A stretch of 64,000 bases of DNA from Tidjanibacter massiliensis (lineage in GTDB: Bacteria; Bacteroidota; Bacteroidia; Bacteroidales; Rikenellaceae). Positions 4,372 through 61,419 of this stretch are shown piece by piece; the first letter of the stretch is position 1, and each line of letters opens with the position of its first letter. The position numbers were made by a program, and so were the translations under genes. The notes under the pieces were generated by a model. That model made no database searches and had not been told where the DNA came from. It saw only the letters and a list, made by a program, of their open reading frames with translations. Location: contig NZ_LT629960.1 in NCBI RefSeq assembly GCF_900104605.1, positions 1,302,001 to 1,366,000 of the forward strand, given 5' to 3'.

Positions 4372-5847
4372 CTACTCCCCGAGGGGAGGAGCGATATACC
4401 ATACATAAGGAATGACCCCGCCCAAAGCGTAACCACGCTGGCCCACTCCCCAAATATGCGTAAGGTCCGGCGAGAAAGCGATAATGCCGCAGTCATCCGG
4501 AATCACGATGCCGTAGGTGTCATAAACCCACTGGGACACGGAACCGACGGCACACTTCGCCTCCACATCGACCACATATCCTTCCGTACCGTACCGCGAC
4601 TGGATGACTCCCAGACCGTCGTCCGTCACCGTCGCCGCATAATATCCGTTATAATCCTCGAAAATGGTCGTCTTCTCCGTTTCGGTATTGTAGAACGCCG
4701 GATAATCGCCCGTCTCTACAATCTGGTGGTTCCGCTCCTCCTCCGTTTTATACGCTCCCGCAATCCATTTTCCGCTGGGGCTGATGTTCGTCCGCTCCGC
4801 CGTACAGGTCACGCCGTTGGCCAGATTCCAATCGAACAGCTCCCAATTGGCATCGTACAACTGGCAGGGCGTTATCGTATGGACATCATGCCCGACATAC
4901 TTGACCTCGCCGTCTTTCCAATAGACCATCCCGGAGTCGTCCCGCTCCCAGGTAGTGCCGTAAATCACCTCGCCGTCGGCCGAGACTCCGCGGGCCATCA
5001 CCCCCGTCGTAAAATCGTATCCCCGGAAATCCTTCTCCGGCATGGGCAGCCACTCGGGAACCCCGTCGGTCCACTTAATGGGGTGGTAGAGCCTGTCGCT
5101 GTCATTACGCACATAGCCGACCCAATATTTCCCGCCGAGCGAAGTAGCCTGAACGGAGGGAACCCGCGACACCCCTCCCGGAGCCTCCGGAGCATAATGA
5201 CCGCCGGTCAAATCGAATATCATCGTCCCGGAAGTATTCGAGTCCTGATAAAAGACCTCTCCGTTGTCGGAGACTGCAAAAGTACCGTGAAACCAACAAA
5301 TCTCGGCCTCTTTATACGGGCCGCCGAGCGCCTGCCGCTCCCCCGTCTCCGTGTCGATTATCACGGGTGTATAATACCAGGTGTTGCCGGAAGGTATTTC
5401 GGCAGTGTATCCTCCGACGTAACGTCCGTTGGGCGACATCGCACCGAGGTTCTGAAAATCGTCCAGCCGACGGAAACGCACGCATCCCTTGCCGGAAGCC
5501 ATTTGGAAAACCGTTATCTCCCGGGACAAAGCGCCCGCGGTCAGCGAAATCCGGGCACTCCGTTCCGCACTGTCGGGGTTGTCATCGACAGTTATCGTGA
5601 AAGATTCCGCCGTTTTGTCGCCGACCTTCGCCCACGAAGCGTCCGACTCCGCCGTCCAGTCGGCATACGCATAGACCGTTACCTTGAAGGGAAGATTATC
5701 CTCTCCGGTAAAGGTACATGCGATGTCGCTCAGGTTCAGGTACTGCAGATTCTCTTCCTCCTCTTTGCCGCATCCGGCCAGGGCACATGCGGCAAACAGA
5801 CCGACGCACCCATACAATAGTTTTTTCCACTCCATGCTTGGAATCAT
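4372..5847 (-). CDS. Propeller-like BACON lipoprotein (module copy a, first gene)
   Basis: A 491-residue lipoprotein. The signal peptide ends in A-L-A-G-C (Cys near residue 25). One BACON domain follows (about residues 35-120, with ASWAKVGDKTAESF), then a long repeat-rich region with S-P-N-G-R-Y-V-G-G, V-M-A-R-G-V-S-A-D-G, G-M-V-Y-W-K-D-G-E-V and T-N-I-S-P-S-G-K-W. These motifs match the paralogs at 560-2044 and 47752-49221 and suggest a WD/YVTN-like propeller. An alternative start 12 bases downstream (M-E-W-K-K-L) gives a more typical signal peptide and cannot be excluded. It is the first gene after infC in the leftward direction. Its ligand is unknown. Confidence 0.87.
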   Translation of the reverse strand: MIPSMEWKKLLYGCVGLFAACALAGCGKEEEENLQYLNLSDIACTFTGEDNLPFKVTVYAYADWTAESDASWAKVGDKTAESFTITVDDNPDSAERSARISLTAGALSREITVFQMASGKGCVRFRRLDDFQNLGAMSPNGRYVGGYTAEIPSGNTWYYTPVIIDTETGERQALGGPYKEAEICWFHGTFAVSDNGEVFYQDSNTSGTMIFDLTGGHYAPEAPGGVSRVPSVQATSLGGKYWVGYVRNDSDRLYHPIKWTDGVPEWLPMPEKDFRGYDFTTGVMARGVSADGEVIYGTTWERDDSGMVYWKDGEVKYVGHDVHTITPCQLYDANWELFDWNLANGVTCTAERTNISPSGKWIAGAYKTEEERNHQIVETGDYPAFYNTETEKTTIFEDYNGYYAATVTDDGLGVIQSRYGTEGYVVDVEAKCAVGSVSQWVYDTYGIVIPDDCGIIAFSPDLTHIWGVGQRGYALGGVIPYVWYIAPPLGE

Positions 5848-6317
5848 TAAAGGGTTAATAATAAAAAGTTAGATTCATAAAAGGAACATACTATTCCTTG
5901 TTTAGACGTCATGCATTAAAAAGCAATACATCGTATCCATTATCGCATTTTTAGTATTTTGTCACAGAAAACTATTTATATTTTTAGTTATACAATAATA
6001 ATATTCATACAACAATAATAAAAGAGAAACTCATCTTTTTTTCCTATAAAAATCATCCGTCTATTAGGAAGAATCAATAATCGGCCCTACAAAAGCGTTT
6101 CAGGGCCCTTCCAAGCAAAAAAAACAGAATACCGACCCTTTCCCCGCAACCGGACACATGCCAACAATACGTCGTCCCTACCCACATAGGGATTCGTCTC
6201 CTACAGAACAGAAAATCCGCCCCGACGCATGCCCTGCAGATACCGCGATTCAGTGTACTGCGAATGAATACCGCCGCAACCCGTCTATCGCTTCCCCGAA
6301 AACGACAAAAAACACGC
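5848..6317. other. AT-rich upstream region of module copy a
   Basis: The gap between module copy a (start 5847) and infC (stop 6453) is 605 bases, close to the 556-base distance between the infC remnant stop and module copy b. Positions about 5860-6070 are very AT-rich and probably hold the module promoter, although no exact minus-strand TAnnTTTG box was found. No gene is supported. Confidence 0.5.
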
Positions 6318-53859: not shown

Positions 53860-54030
53860 ATCATTACCGCCGAGCCGCACCAACCGCCGGGCAGTTTTTT
53901 CCCTTCATACCGCCCCGTTCCGTGACGGTATGCGCCGGAATACCTACCGAAAACCCCTTCCACAGCGGCAATCTCCCGGACAAGCGAAGAAGTATAATAC
54001 CATAATTAGACTTCATTATAATATTTTTCA

Positions 54031-54055: not shown

Positions 54056-55309
54056 ATGAACACACCCACCATATCCCAATATGCCGAAAGCGTATGCCAC
54101 CCTTACGGCCGTTTCCGCACCCTCGGAGAACCGGCCGTCGAACGCGATGCCTACGGGGAACCCCTGCTCTATGCAGGAGGCAATGCGGCGGTGTTCAAAG
54201 TATGGCTCGCAGGCAGACCCTATGCGCTGAAATGCTACACCCGACCGGGAAAACGCAACGGCATGCTCTACGCATACCTCGCCGGACGCCGGACGCCGCT
54301 GCTCTGCGAAGTCCGGTACCTACCCGAAGAACTCTACATCTATGGCCCGGACGGAGAAGGGGCGTGGTACGATACCGTGCTGACCGAGTGGGCCGACGGG
54401 GATTCGCTTGGATACGCCGTAAGGAGAGCGCTCCATCACCGCGATACGGAGAGAATGGCCGCCCTGTCCCGTGGTTTCGACGCGATGGTCGCCGCACTGC
54501 TCTCCATGCCGTGGGCACACGGCGACCTGAAACCGGGGAACATCACGGTCGGGACTGACGGCACGATGCGGCTGCTCGACTACGACGCCATGTACATTCC
54601 CGGCATCGACGCGCCCGGAGCACCCGAAACGGGTACCCCGCAGTTCAACCACCCCTCCCGCAACGCCTCCTTCTTCTCGAAAAGCATCGACGACTATCCC
54701 GCGGCACTCATCTCGGCAGCACTGCGCACACTCGCCGCCGACCTTTCATTCGCCGACGGGGCCGACCTGACGGACTCGCTGCTTTTCACTCCGCCGGAGC
54801 TCTTCGCACGCCGGTCTGAGCGATATGCCAAAGCCCTCACGGAGGCGGCACGGCGGGGCGATGCCGTCACCTACCGTCTGCTCGCCCTCCTGCTCTCACC
54901 GACACCGGCACTTCCGTCCCTCGGCGGAATCATCCGGTTCGCGACGAACGGAAACGACGCGCTCCCGGCCGGAAATACCGCACCGGAACCCTTCCTGCGC
55001 GACGGTGCATGGGGATACGAAACGGCCGGACACGAAACCGTCCCTCCGCTGTTCGACACGGCTCTCCGCTTTACCGAAGGGCTCGCCGTAGTGGAAACGG
55101 GCGGCTTCCGTCACTTCATCGACCCCACGGGACACACGGCCATCGTGGGCAGCGGATACGACCATCTGAAGCCCTTCCGCAGCGGTGTGGCGGCCGTCAG
55201 ACGGGCAGGCCGGTGGAGCTGTATCGACCGCCGGGGCAATCCGGTAGAGTCACCCTCCGACAACGGCCGGAAGGGTATCCCGGAAGCCGGCGGAGAAGAA
55301 AACCGGTAA
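54056..55309 (+). CDS. Kinase-like protein with C-terminal WG repeats (operon gene 1)
   Basis: A 417-residue soluble protein. Residues about 10-230 have a eukaryotic-type protein kinase fold: a degenerate Gly loop A-G-G-N-A-A-V-F-K-V, the VAIK-type Lys59 (Y-A-L-K-C), the catalytic loop H-G-D-L-K-P-G-N-I (Asp157, Asn162), a DFG equivalent L-L-D-Y-D (Asp175 or Asp177), G-T-P-Q-F-N-H-P-S-R and D-D-Y-P-A-A-L. Key residues are kept, so activity is possible. The end (about 312-395) holds WG-type beta repeats (L-R-D-G-A-W-G-Y, A-G-R-W-S-C-I-D-R-R-G). It heads a three-gene operon with a VWA protein and a degenerate kinase paralog. Role inferred: signalling. Substrate unknown. Confidence 0.82.
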   Translation: MNTPTISQYAESVCHPYGRFRTLGEPAVERDAYGEPLLYAGGNAAVFKVWLAGRPYALKCYTRPGKRNGMLYAYLAGRRTPLLCEVRYLPEELYIYGPDGEGAWYDTVLTEWADGDSLGYAVRRALHHRDTERMAALSRGFDAMVAALLSMPWAHGDLKPGNITVGTDGTMRLLDYDAMYIPGIDAPGAPETGTPQFNHPSRNASFFSKSIDDYPAALISAALRTLAADLSFADGADLTDSLLFTPPELFARRSERYAKALTEAARRGDAVTYRLLALLLSPTPALPSLGGIIRFATNGNDALPAGNTAPEPFLRDGAWGYETAGHETVPPLFDTALRFTEGLAVVETGGFRHFIDPTGHTAIVGSGYDHLKPFRSGVAAVRRAGRWSCIDRRGNPVESPSDNGRKGIPEAGGEENR

Positions 55310-55449
55310 AAGCCGTATCCGGCGTGGCAAGAGGAACGGGCAGCAGGAGACGGCGGAAAAAGAGCAACATGCCGGATACCGTGCGACAGGAAACGGACAG
55401 AACCCGGCCGGTCCGGCAAGGAAGACACGCGACAAACCAACAACATACG

Positions 55450-56313
55450 ATGTACAAGGCAAAGATAACCCGAGAACACCGGACGGCATTCATCATCCTC
55501 TGCGACCGCTCCGGCTCCATGGCCGAAGAGACACGGTTCGGCGGGCAGGTCATGCGAAAGGCCGAAGCGGTCGCCTGCATCATCAACATGCTGCTCGGCG
55601 AACTCATCCACCGCTCCCGGCGCGACGACGGAATAAGGGATTACTTCGACATCGCCGTTCTCGGATACTCCGGCAGCGGAGTGCAGCCCTTGCTCCCCGC
55701 CGGCGACCGGGAACGGTTCATCGGCATCGGCGACCTCGTCCGTCTGCCTGCGCCGGTGCAGCAGCGCCGTATGCTGCGCACGCTGCCCGGCGGAAGACAG
55801 ACGGCGGTGGAAATCGGACAGCGGCAGTGGATAACCCCCGAAGCGAACGGCGACACCCCCATGTGCAGAGCACTGTCGGCAGCCGCCGTACTGGCAGGAG
55901 CGTGGTGTGCCGTCCCCCGCAACCGCGACAGCTTTCCGCCCATCGTCCTCAACATCACCGACGGCGAAGCTTCCGATGCCACGCCGCAAACCCTGCTCGC
56001 CGAAGCCGGCAGCATCAAATCCGTCGCCACACGCGACGGGAATGTCCTTCTTTTCAACATCCACCTGGCCGGAAGCGGCACGCAGACCTCCGCACAGTGC
56101 TTCCCCTCGAACAGGGAGGAACTCCCCTACATCCGGTATGCCGACCTGCTCTACGACATGTCGAGCGAGCTACCCGCCTGTTACGACGACCTGATACTCG
56201 CCTCGCGCCCCGGAGCCTGCCCGCCGTTCCGGGCGGTCGGCTACAACTGTCCCGTGGAAGAGCTCTTCGCCATGCTGGCCATCGGTACGGCCAGCTCCTC
56301 CTTCGTGATATGA
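55450..56313 (+). CDS. VWA-domain protein, TerY-like (operon gene 2)
   Basis: A 287-residue von Willebrand factor A protein without membrane segments. The full metal-ion-dependent adhesion site is visible: D-R-S-G-S-M (Asp19, Ser21, Ser23), Thr136 in N-G-D-T-P-M and Asp171 in N-I-T-D-G-E. The layout resembles TerY/YegL-type VWA proteins that bind partner proteins through Mg. M-Y-K-A-K-I-T at 55450 is the preferred start. An in-frame ATG at 55370 would add 27 residues with low similarity to VWA folds. It lies 140 bases after gene 1, and its stop overlaps the ATG of gene 3 (ATGA), so genes 2 and 3 are translationally coupled. Confidence 0.86.
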   Translation: MYKAKITREHRTAFIILCDRSGSMAEETRFGGQVMRKAEAVACIINMLLGELIHRSRRDDGIRDYFDIAVLGYSGSGVQPLLPAGDRERFIGIGDLVRLPAPVQQRRMLRTLPGGRQTAVEIGQRQWITPEANGDTPMCRALSAAAVLAGAWCAVPRNRDSFPPIVLNITDGEASDATPQTLLAEAGSIKSVATRDGNVLLFNIHLAGSGTQTSAQCFPSNREELPYIRYADLLYDMSSELPACYDDLILASRPGACPPFRAVGYNCPVEELFAMLAIGTASSSFVI

Positions 56314-57809
56314 CGCGACCGGGTCCGACCATAGCCGCCATCGCCGAAAGCCTGCTCCATCCGCAGGGAAGGTTCCGCAGGCTCTCCGGGGTAACCCCCG
56401 TCACGGACACAAACGGCGTACCCCGCTTCACCGTCACGGCGGAAACGGCGGATTTCGAGGCGGAAGCCGACGGTACGCCCTGTCTGCTCAGGTTCTCCCT
56501 CGGCGAGAATACGCGCCTGCGCCGTAACGCACAGGAACATCCCTTTCCCAAAGGCGGTGAAAGGTTCTTCATCGCCCCCTACGAATACCTGTACGAAGAG
56601 ATGCTCTTCTTCGACGGTACGGGAACCCCGCAACGTACCGACCTTCTGCTCGAACGGCTCCCGCCCGGCGCCCTCCGGCTCCCCGATTTCGTCCGCACCC
56701 ACCTCGACCGTAACGGAGCCTCCATCCTCCGCCGTCTGCTGGAGAGCGTGGCCGAAATGTACCGGACATTCGATGCCGAAGGTATCGTACACGGACACCT
56801 CAAAACGGCCAACATCCTCGTCACTGCCGACGGCCGGCCCACGGCCATCCGCTGTCTCCACAGCCACAGCCGCGACGCCCGAAACGACCGTTCGGCATTG
56901 CTGCGGCTCTCCCTCGCCGTCTATGTTTCGGCCTGTATGCCGCCGCTCTTCCATATGCTGTGGACCTCCCCGACAGCAGAGGCGTGGCTGCCGGCACTCT
57001 TTACACAGGCCGAATTCGACCGGAATACGCCCCTGATACGCATCGCGGCAGCCGCCGCAGCAGACAGTACCCCTCCCCTACACGCGCTTCCGCCGGAACT
57101 GCTCCGGTCACCCGGCCCCGAAGAGACCGCCGCACTGCTCGATACGCTGGCCGCACTGCCCTTCGCCCCCATGCCGTTGTTGGAAGCGCTGCTGGAAACG
57201 GCAGCGAATACCTCCGCTCACGCCACGGCACACGATATCACCGTACCCTACACGGCAACGGAAACAGCCGGCCCGCAGACGATACTCCTCGATACCGAGA
57301 CATGCGAGCACATCGGACGTCCGGCCGACACGGTCGTGCGCTACTGTAAAAACGGCCTGTGGGGATACGCCGACGCGGAACTGCGGCCACTGACAGCTCC
57401 GGTGTTCACCCGGGCGGACGAATTTTACGAAGGCCGGGCCGCCGCGGGAAATACCGGCGGGGTCGGTCTGATAGACCGCAGCGGCGGATTTGTCATGGAA
57501 CCGCGCTTCGAAGCGCTCGAATGGTACGGCGAATGGAACGTGGCGGCGGCCTGCCTTGACGGCGAATGGAATCTCTACGACCGGTGCGGAAAGCGGCTGA
57601 CGGCCTCCGGATACGACTGGATGGCTCCGCCGGCGGAGGGGACGCTCCTTGTCCGGCGCAGGGAGCGGTTCGGGTTCATCGACCTGACCGGCCAACCCGT
57701 CACGGAGCTGCGTTACGAGGAGGCTTTCTCCTTCAGCGACGGCCGGGCACTCGTCCGCACCGGCCATACCGCATACTTCATCGACCGGGAAGGACGACGG
57801 ATAAAATAA
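56310..57809 (+). CDS. Pseudokinase with four WG-type repeats (operon gene 3)
   Basis: A 499-residue paralog of operon gene 1. The N-termini match (A-E-S-L-L-H-P-Q-G-R-F-R-R-L against A-E-S-V-C-H-P-Y-G-R-F-R-T-L). The kinase fold is degenerate: the Lys position is Arg61 (C-L-L-R-F), the catalytic loop is H-G-H-L-K-T-A-N-I-L with His163 in place of Asp, and no DFG is present (A-I-R-C-L-H-S-H-S). It is therefore probably inactive. Residues about 345-499 form WG repeats (N-G-L-W-G-Y-A-D, G-L-I-D-R-S-G, G-E-W-N-L-Y-D-R-C-G, F-G-F-I-D-L-T-G). It starts inside the stop codon of the VWA gene. A scaffold or regulator of gene 1 is the likeliest role. Confidence 0.82.
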   Translation: MTRPGPTIAAIAESLLHPQGRFRRLSGVTPVTDTNGVPRFTVTAETADFEAEADGTPCLLRFSLGENTRLRRNAQEHPFPKGGERFFIAPYEYLYEEMLFFDGTGTPQRTDLLLERLPPGALRLPDFVRTHLDRNGASILRRLLESVAEMYRTFDAEGIVHGHLKTANILVTADGRPTAIRCLHSHSRDARNDRSALLRLSLAVYVSACMPPLFHMLWTSPTAEAWLPALFTQAEFDRNTPLIRIAAAAAADSTPPLHALPPELLRSPGPEETAALLDTLAALPFAPMPLLEALLETAANTSAHATAHDITVPYTATETAGPQTILLDTETCEHIGRPADTVVRYCKNGLWGYADAELRPLTAPVFTRADEFYEGRAAAGNTGGVGLIDRSGGFVMEPRFEALEWYGEWNVAAACLDGEWNLYDRCGKRLTASGYDWMAPPAEGTLLVRRRERFGFIDLTGQPVTELRYEEAFSFSDGRALVRTGHTAYFIDREGRRIK

Positions 57810-60432: not shown

Positions 60433-61419
60433 ATGAAAAGATTGTACCTGACAAGCGTATCGGCACTCCTGCTACTGACCGGATGCGAACAACTGCAATC
60501 GCTGCTCGACCGACAAATCAGCGTACCGGACACCTCGCAGCTCATACAAACCGTCTCTGCCGAAAGCACCGAAGGGGAAACCACCATCGACTTCATCACC
60601 CAGGATGCCTGGCAGGCTGCAATATCCCAACCGGGCGAGGAACGCATTCCCGAATGGCTCTCCGTATCGCCCGAAAGCGGGGACGAAGGCGGAACCTACT
60701 CCATGCACATCGCACTGCTTCCAAACGAAAACAACTCGGACCGCACCGCACTCATAACGATTACCTGCGGAAAGGACGAGGTCCAAGCAAGAATCACGCA
60801 AAAAGCGACGGACGACAGCGGAAACGGCACCGGGGACGAAGATGAAGACGAAGACGAAGATTCGCTCATATTTGCCGACGGTACCCCGCAGACCCTGACC
60901 CTCCCCGCAGCAGGCGGCGAAATCGACCTCACATTCTCCGCTTCCGGCCCATGGCAGGCAGAAATAACCGATGGGGTCGAATGGATTGTCCTCTCACAGG
61001 CCGCGGGCGAAGCCGGAGAACACTCCCTCACCGTAACCGTCGCTGAAAACGCAGCCCCGGTACAACGGGCAGCCGAGATTACCTTCACATGCGGCACCTC
61101 CGCAGTAACCATCTTAATTACACAGCAGGCAACGGAAACCATCACATTTCCGGACGGTACCCCGCAGACCCTGACCCTCCCCGCAGCAGGCGGCGAAATC
61201 GACCTCACATTCTCCGCTTCCGGCCCATGGCAGGCAGAAATAACCGATGGGGTCGAATGGATTGTCCTCTCACAGGCCGCGGGCGAAGCCGGAGAACACT
61301 CCCTCACCATAACCGTCGCTGAAAACGCAGCCCCAGTACAACGGGCAGCCGAGATTACCTTCACATGCGGCACCTCCGCAGTAACCTTCTCAATTACACA
61401 GCAGGCTGCGGAAATATAA
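60433..61419 (+). CDS. BACON lipoprotein with duplicated domain
   Basis: A 328-residue lipoprotein. The signal peptide ends L-L-L-L-T-G-C (Cys 18). A first BACON-like domain covers about 25-125, then an acidic linker D-E-D-E-D-E-D-E-D. Two almost identical 92-residue BACON domains follow (F-A/P-D-G-T-P-Q-T-L-T-L-P-A-A-G-G, W-Q-A-E-I-T-D-G-V-E-W-I, ending F/L-I-T-Q-Q-A). The repeat unit is 276 bases with only a few differences between copies. The protein is predicted to be surface-anchored. A TAATTTCG element at 60365-60372 may be its -7 box. No catalytic motif is visible. Confidence 0.88.
   Translation: MKRLYLTSVSALLLLTGCEQLQSLLDRQISVPDTSQLIQTVSAESTEGETTIDFITQDAWQAAISQPGEERIPEWLSVSPESGDEGGTYSMHIALLPNENNSDRTALITITCGKDEVQARITQKATDDSGNGTGDEDEDEDEDSLIFADGTPQTLTLPAAGGEIDLTFSASGPWQAEITDGVEWIVLSQAAGEAGEHSLTVTVAENAAPVQRAAEITFTCGTSAVTILITQQATETITFPDGTPQTLTLPAAGGEIDLTFSASGPWQAEITDGVEWIVLSQAAGEAGEHSLTITVAENAAPVQRAAEITFTCGTSAVTFSITQQAAEI

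Follow-up and report, generated by a model that had tools for sequence, protein, structure and literature searches.

The TerY-P triad is described as a combination of a von Willebrand A (VWA) protein with a PP2C phosphatase and a kinase carrying a zinc ribbon that is associated with tellurite resistance and restriction systems, or, with an OB-fold, as stand-alone anti-phage system (PMC11090510, PMC7699616). A 64,000-nucleotide stretch of the Tidjanibacter massiliensis genome (family Rikenellaceae; contig NZ_LT629960.1, positions 1,302,001 to 1,366,000), hereafter termed the window, contains a related group of three genes, which encode a protein kinase (K1), a VWA protein and a second kinase-like protein (K2). 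In a comparison of this trio with its homologues, we find VWA and K1 to be homologous to the respective components of the triad, with the genes being adjacent in many genera, whereas an adjacent PP2C is missing and a pseudokinase paralogue of K1 is found in its place. We give about even chances to a reading in which the trio would constitute a phospho-signalling module that originates from a TerY-P triad and in which an adaptor and a pseudokinase would jointly control a single kinase.

The cooperation between a catalytic protein and its dead paralogue that we propose here has a parallel in eukaryotic kinase-pseudokinase pairs such as JAK JH1/JH2 and EGFR/HER3, although the members of the trio are separate proteins that are accompanied by a VWA adaptor and we claim no recent shared ancestry with these pairs. 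To our knowledge, pseudokinases that work with a fixed catalytic partner have rarely been described in bacteria.

Composition of the trio and catalytic state of its kinase folds

The three genes are arranged in the order nadC – K1 – VWA – K2 – ispF, with the trio reading rightward and both flanking genes located on the opposite strand, and thus conform to a preliminary description of this DNA, whose coordinates required only slight refinement. K1 (54056–55309, forward strand, 417 residues) contains a Ser/Thr kinase domain at about residues 1–290 with intact HGDLKPGN and DYD motifs, followed by C-terminal WG repeats. The VWA gene (55450–56313, forward strand) encodes a TerY-type protein of 287 residues with a complete metal site (DxSxS, T, D), and K2 (56310–57809, forward strand, 499 residues) consists of a pseudokinase domain, in which the catalytic Asp and the DFG region are lost, and C-terminal WG repeats. 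The equivalent motif of K2 reads HGHLKTAN and thus lacks the catalytic Asp. The recurrence of homologues in the same order across Rikenellaceae indicates that the trio is more than a product of chance, and chance open reading frames in GC-rich DNA were ruled out by these homologues.

The relationship to the triad is manifested in searches with PADLOC models, where TerY (PDLC02224) matches the VWA protein with 171.5 bits and STK_OB (PDLC02223) matches residues 1–234 of K1 with 99.9 bits. The latter match stops at profile position 235 of 562, where WG repeats follow. STK_OB also recognizes 33 out of 33 K1 proteins from a set of chosen loci, and its match to K2 is marginal (E 0.0043). The Pfam model of WG repeats scores 35.6 bits in K1 and 65.1 bits in K2 at a cut-off of 25.6. 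For the VWA protein, neither Pfam nor NCBIfam contained a matching family at E up to 1 and no solved structure was matched by sequence at E ≤ 0.1; the sequence matches of K1 and K2 to solved structures are distant (best E 0.009 and 0.055, respectively). The kinase folds assigned to both proteins in the preliminary description were recovered in Foldseek comparisons, where protein kinases account for all 50 matches listed for each of the two low-confidence models, and the metal site described there as intact is complete (DxSxS/T/D) in 103 of 113 aligned VWA proteins of the family, including the one in the window. In a search of the window's genome with PF00069, K1 was the single match at E ≤ 0.1 (E 0.015), with 12 of 14 control genomes being matched. 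As this sole match, K1 may be the main Hanks-type kinase of the organism, although the profile is weak on this kinase family.

Homology to TerY and an intact metal site might also point to a classical Ter-type response to metal or tellurite stress, and TerY-P triads have been described as hypothetical metal-sensing switches (PMC11090510). With TerD found in none of the 112 family genomes that are at least 90% complete, we have rejected a tellurite system and consider a stress response of this type very improbable.

The two kinase folds are clearly distinguished by their catalytic residues. The catalytic-loop Asp is retained by all but one of the 65 K1 proteins encoded upstream of VWA (64/65) and by none of the 89 K2 proteins encoded downstream, which contain another residue in 73 cases and a gap in 16. 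The Asp at the DFG position is found in 65/65 K1 and in 16/89 K2 (25 gaps), the Gly of the Gly-loop in 65/65 and 21/89, and the Lys in β-strand 3 in 52/65 and 18/89. This residue table rules out that K2 would be a second ordinary kinase and, together with the Foldseek matches of its low-confidence model, defines K2 as pseudokinase, with a kinase fold whose catalytic residues are lost, as anticipated in the early pairing of a kinase with a pseudokinase. In a phylogenetic tree of 81 rows, comprising K1 and K2 from the 33 chosen loci plus outgroups, K2 proteins form one side of a single branch with a support of 100 and outgroup kinases one side of a branch with a weak support of 42, with K1 located in between (two changes). 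With the caveat of long branches, this topology fits a single duplication. As candidates for K2-type proteins, eight genomes outside the family matched the K2 profile below E 1e-10 in a run on 247 genomes of the order, and we rejected seven (G363, G378, G435, G418, G241, G269, G323), in which the kinase that was read keeps the catalytic Asp within an HGD motif; this reading excludes the match in G259, which contains one in-frame stop, a second match in G363 and all weaker matches.

Since some kinase-fold proteins are active without the usual residues, K2 could alternatively be alive with an unusual chemistry such as AMP transfer, thus turning the trio into a module with two different enzymes, and the nearly invariant His161 of K2 would be in line with such activity. 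Conversely, the Gly-loop, Lys, catalytic Asp and DFG Asp are all variable among K2 proteins, which in some genera align to the kinase model over their N-terminal third only, and we thus regard an active K2 as very improbable.

When 33 K2 proteins were aligned, 13 positions proved nearly invariant, and 9 of these are located in the WG part. With a profile built from the K2 tails of the 33 chosen loci and applied to all 65 K1 and 89 K2, WG repeats were detected in 87/89 K2, the exceptions being L157, which is cut by the contig, and L108 with a short K2, and in 46/65 K1. These numbers supersede an earlier Pfam count at the 33 chosen loci (30/33 K1 and 32/33 K2 at E ≤ 0.01), whose choice over-represented long-tailed K1. 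No function of WG or KWG repeats was found in the open-licence literature. At loci L084, L088–L091, L093, L095–L097, L099 and L100 of genus g1, K1 has a length of about 250–300 residues and, unlike that of the window, no WG tail, while the respective K2 keep their repeats. The window's genome also encodes a second WG-repeat protein outside the window (G000 C8:1120824-1121249), which is unlinked to the trio.

Phosphatase, gene order and linkage in Rikenellaceae

To locate phosphatases we have used a profile trained on the PP2C proteins encoded at seven non-Rikenellaceae TerY loci (L009, L162–L167). A PP2C is found beside TerY at 6/6 loci of the order, all of which were used for training, at 5/5 loci of Nitrospirota (one trained) and at 13/15 loci of the phylum (none trained), amounting to 24 of 26 non-family loci, with 7 of them belonging to the training set; the profile shows no match at the phylum loci L217 and L224. 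In contrast, it matches at none of the 115 TerY loci of the family, and the statement of the preliminary description that the locus lacks a phosphatase is thus upheld. In the Bacteroidales outgroups with an upstream kinase (L163, L166), genes follow the order kinase, VWA, PP2C, and it is the position of this PP2C that is occupied by K2 in Rikenellaceae.

The TerY-P-like loci L163, L165 and L166 of other Bacteroidales families resemble the trio in that VWA is directly followed by another gene, and in L163 and L166 in the kinase located upstream, whose C-terminus likewise contains repeats (by eye resembling Sel1 or LRR). In contrast to the trio, their VWA is fused to a DarT domain and followed by PP2C, and a DUF6939-like gene is present. 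In L163 (about 4411–5853), L166 (4394–5857) and L165, the TerY VWA is preceded by the DarT domain (PF14487 in L166, the others assigned by eye), with the DUF6939-like gene located 5' and PP2C 3' of DarT-VWA (Pfam was run on L166 only). These loci thus appear to be TerY-P systems coupled to a DarT toxin.

With no PP2C at the family loci and K2 in its place, the module appears to be a derived TerY-P triad containing a pseudokinase paralogue. Judged by its sequences it is not a TerY-P triad proper, since it showed neither an adjacent PP2C (PDLC02222 in the PADLOC triad) nor a kinase tail with an OB-fold or zinc ribbon, the zinc ribbon on K1 having been checked through a Pfam scan alone. Instead, the tail of K1, where present, consists of WG repeats. 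The system is also distinguished from the triad by being near-universal in one family instead of patchy. A similar comparison applies to the kinase-kinase-phosphatase system (KKP) of Pf prophages, which likewise encodes two kinase-fold proteins together but which contains two kinases and a phosphatase and is prophage-borne, whereas the trio is chromosomal and family-wide (PMC11341870). The two active kinases and the phosphatase of KKP have no match here, as one fold is dead by the residue count above and no PP2C adjoins it.

To investigate the gene order, we retrieved the regions around VWA from 94 additional family genomes, giving 95 loci from 22 genera when the window is included, and from six other genomes of the order. 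These were complemented by 20 extra family loci chosen for a weak VWA score or a weak or missing K1, giving 115 family loci altogether. Among the first 95 loci, K2 is located downstream of VWA in 89 and directly upstream in three (L115, L142, L152), whereas L141 and L156 end at a contig edge and L137 is devoid of K2. The distance between VWA and K2 at the 89 loci has a median of 6 nucleotides, with 78 of them falling within −4 to +30 and a full range of −187 to +328. At the extra loci, K2 is adjacent in 9 cases and not found in 11 (with L245 cut by a contig edge), and it adjoins VWA in 101 out of 112 family loci where this could be judged. K1 precedes VWA in the same orientation, within the retrieved region of about 5 kb, at 65 of the 95 loci, which represent 14 of the 22 genera. 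In 29 of the remaining 30, a strong K1 match (E ≤ 1e-54) is present elsewhere in the genome, with that of G044 containing an in-frame stop, and the only genome without such a match, G014, has a completeness of 57%. Several of these 30 loci are located at contig edges, but the separation is real in long contigs, where VWA and K1 are placed more than 400 kb apart on one contig each at positions 2013050 and 256082 in G013 and 96207 and 532150 in G027. In genus g22, K1 is some kilobases off, and a DUF4954/DUF6819 gene is found at 17 of 21 loci, in L171 (3074–4939) between K1 and VWA. On contigs C52 of G080 and C82 of G107, both of genus g1, K1 is found beside a K2-like match on a contig other than that of VWA. 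Thus, the gene order proposed to be conserved in relatives recurs across Rikenellaceae, and the scattering of genes that would have spoken against a common module applies to K1 in some genera (such as in G013 and G027), while K2 mostly remains beside VWA.

Distribution, inheritance and rate of evolution

TerY was detected in 182 of 200 sampled Rikenellaceae genomes covering 22/22 genera, and in 103/109 of the good assemblies, with one match per genome except for three genomes with two. In a sample of the order, it is found in 10/295 genomes including three of four Rikenellaceae, leaving 7/291 others, one of which (G374) shows a weak and partial match, and in a sample of the phylum in 16/345, or 15/344 without the window's own genome. 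Of the 200 family genomes, 184 were matched by a K1 profile, which also picks up K2 weakly. Both proteins co-occur in 176 of the 200, with TerY alone in 6, K1 alone in 8 and neither in 10 (Fisher p 1.2e-8), and if K1 is counted at E ≤ 1e-20 the respective numbers are 172, 10, 6 and 12 (Fisher p 1.4e-9), with both distributions being far from independence and both p-values uncorrected for shared ancestry. Genomes that lack both proteins at a completeness of 90% or more belong to two genera (G037; G066, G072, G112 and G128). Provided that the assemblies are reliable, this double absence would have arisen more than once.

The observation that K1 moves off in some genera and that VWA at times occurs without K2 might suggest three functionally unrelated genes that are neighbours by chance. 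The shared TerY-P ancestry of VWA and K1, their co-occurrence and shared absence and the adjacency of VWA and K2 instead make this explanation very improbable.

In a tree of VWA proteins (139 rows), outgroups are separated from the family by one change with a support of 86. Among 15 listed groups, 14 form one side of a branch, while g1 requires two changes. For the full set of 23 groups, 22 changes are required, which is the minimum. The tree thus fits vertical inheritance. A near relative that was used for comparison is Candidatus Tidjanibacter gallistercoris (L006), whose VWA is 72% identical. For this single genome pair, the nonsynonymous divergence (dN) is 0.273 for K1, 0.197 for VWA and 0.332 for K2, compared to 0.025–0.084 for four flanking genes, whereas the synonymous divergence (dS) of 0.97, 0.74 and 0.94 is similar to that of the flanks (0.43–0.92). 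The excess at the protein level ranges from about twice (VWA vs DPP4) to thirteen times (K2 vs ispF). In this pair, the trio has diverged together with its neighbours and is fast-evolving under purifying selection. Near the 19 loci of the window's genus, DPP4 is found in 15, nadC in 14 and ispF in 3 cases, whereas outside this genus DPP4 and nadC are near the trio at 2 of 21 g22 loci and at none in the other 20 genera. As this neighbourhood is mostly confined to one genus, the trio outlives its surroundings.

The family-wide presence that tracks genera favours a resident regulatory or surveillance role. It also speaks against the suggestion of a variable island or mobile defence set in the preliminary description, which was not supported, and we rejected an island or mobile element in light of the near-universal presence, the tree fitting vertical inheritance, a GC content resembling the surroundings (0.62–0.64 for the trio and 0.54–0.66 around it) and a dS like that of the neighbours. 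The trio might nevertheless serve in anti-phage defence in a similar manner as TerY-P. In this case, K2 would be the sensor or inhibitor, and K1 a toxic kinase that is released upon infection. In this respect, VWA and K1 match the PADLOC models of TerY and STK_OB, TerY-P has been reported as stand-alone anti-phage system (PMC11090510, PMC7699616), and the study on KKP describes a kinase-kinase-phosphatase trio that acts as phosphorylation-based toxin-antitoxin (PMC11341870). The faster evolution of the trio compared to its neighbours keeps this alternative alive. Conversely, the presence of one copy in nearly every genome and its inheritance with genera are unlike patchy defence islands, the identified flanking genes are housekeeping or peptidase genes, and relatives of VWA were found on only two plasmid records (Calothrix and Acaryochloris) and on no phage record. 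On balance, we consider an anti-phage defence function unlikely, though far from negligible.

A proposed kinase-pseudokinase switch and minor features of the locus

The sequences directly support the homologies, the division into an active and a dead kinase, the missing PP2C next to VWA, the linkage and co-occurrence of the genes, a phylogeny in line with vertical inheritance, and rapid change at the protein level that is constrained by purifying selection. In the mechanism that we propose for the phospho-signalling module, a TerY-P triad consisting of VWA, PP2C and Ser/Thr kinase would have been converted into its present form in, or before, the ancestor of Rikenellaceae. The kinase gene would have duplicated, with K1 staying catalytic and K2 losing catalysis and taking the place of PP2C beside VWA. 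VWA and K2, whose genes overlap here by ATGA and are adjacent at most loci, would form a standing complex, where the metal site of VWA and the WG repeats might bind a ligand or client protein. As allosteric partner, the pseudokinase K2 would turn K1 on or off, and K1 would in turn phosphorylate clients or the complex itself. A more specific version, which we put forward tentatively and at somewhat less than even odds, describes a defence triad domesticated in the ancestor of the family, in which the PP2C was replaced by a dead kinase copy to yield a kinase-pseudokinase switch with a WG sensor on K2, which would have become near-universal while retaining a conflict-like rate of evolution. The preliminary description did not recognise the system as described, which does not apply to VWA and K1 as recognisable relatives of TerY-P components, whereas a pseudokinase-WG form of TerY-P was not found in the open-licence literature. 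The 115 loci from 22 genera, where a dead kinase mostly resides in the place of the phosphatase that outgroups keep, constitute a replicated natural experiment through which the roles of TerY and WG repeats can be put to the test.

Several observations weigh against this phospho-signalling module. With respect to the proteins themselves, the predicted models of K1 and K2, built from alignments of eight sequences each, are of low confidence (mean pLDDT 53 and 52). K1 of L105 contains Asn instead of the catalytic Asp, and 13/65 K1 contain Arg in place of the β-strand 3 Lys, a replacement that would normally weaken catalysis. Twelve of these 13 belong to g22 (12/16 K1 in this genus, for example L121, L143, L168, L171 and L178), where the catalytic and DFG Asp are both retained. 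WG repeats were not found on 19/65 K1, which include 13/18 in the window's own genus, 5/6 in g16 and 1/16 in g22, and the presumed fusion of WG repeats to both kinases thus holds in the window but not in general. The tail of the window's K1 is, by its sequence, typical for the family but atypical for its own genus, and a contact between the WG repeats of K1 and K2 cannot be a general feature.

With respect to linkage, the lack of an upstream K1 at 30/95 loci implies that an operon of all three genes is not obligatory. Moreover, K2 is not adjacent at 11 of the 20 extra loci, and five of the respective genomes also show no K1 match (L237, L246, L250, L251 and L245 in G141, G145, G156, G198 and G121), indicating that VWA can persist alone. 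The lone VWA at these loci, with L245 being cut by the contig, might be a relict or a re-used TerY. The absence of the phosphatase applies to the position beside TerY and may or may not extend to the rest of the genome. Although PF13672 detects no PP2C in the window's genome nor in 93 of the 112 family genomes with a completeness of 90% or more (with matches in 19/112), this Pfam model misses two tested PP2Cs of TerY loci that are recognized by PADLOC PDLC02222, and we thus rejected it as proof of a phosphatase-free genome. Finally, the rapid evolution of the trio would equally fit a role in conflict or defence.

The genes adjoining the trio encode quinolinate phosphoribosyltransferase (nadC) and YgbB (ispF). 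The start of VWA was set at 55450, where a Met is conserved in relatives, and the open reading frame from 55009 is an in-frame upstream extension. The start of K2 was set at 56310, where it overlaps the VWA stop, with the open reading frame from GTG 55827 being an extension within VWA. K1 and VWA are separated by an intergenic stretch of 140 nucleotides (55310–55449, forward strand). A weak sigma-70-like promoter match is found 5' of K1 (53977–54006, forward strand), with one match compared to 0.9 expected by chance, and the sequence TATCTTTAC immediately 5' of K1 bears a likeness to what we take to be the Bacteroidales −7 box and is thus a candidate only. Further downstream in the window, positions 60433–61419 encode a BACON-domain protein with near-identical internal repeats.

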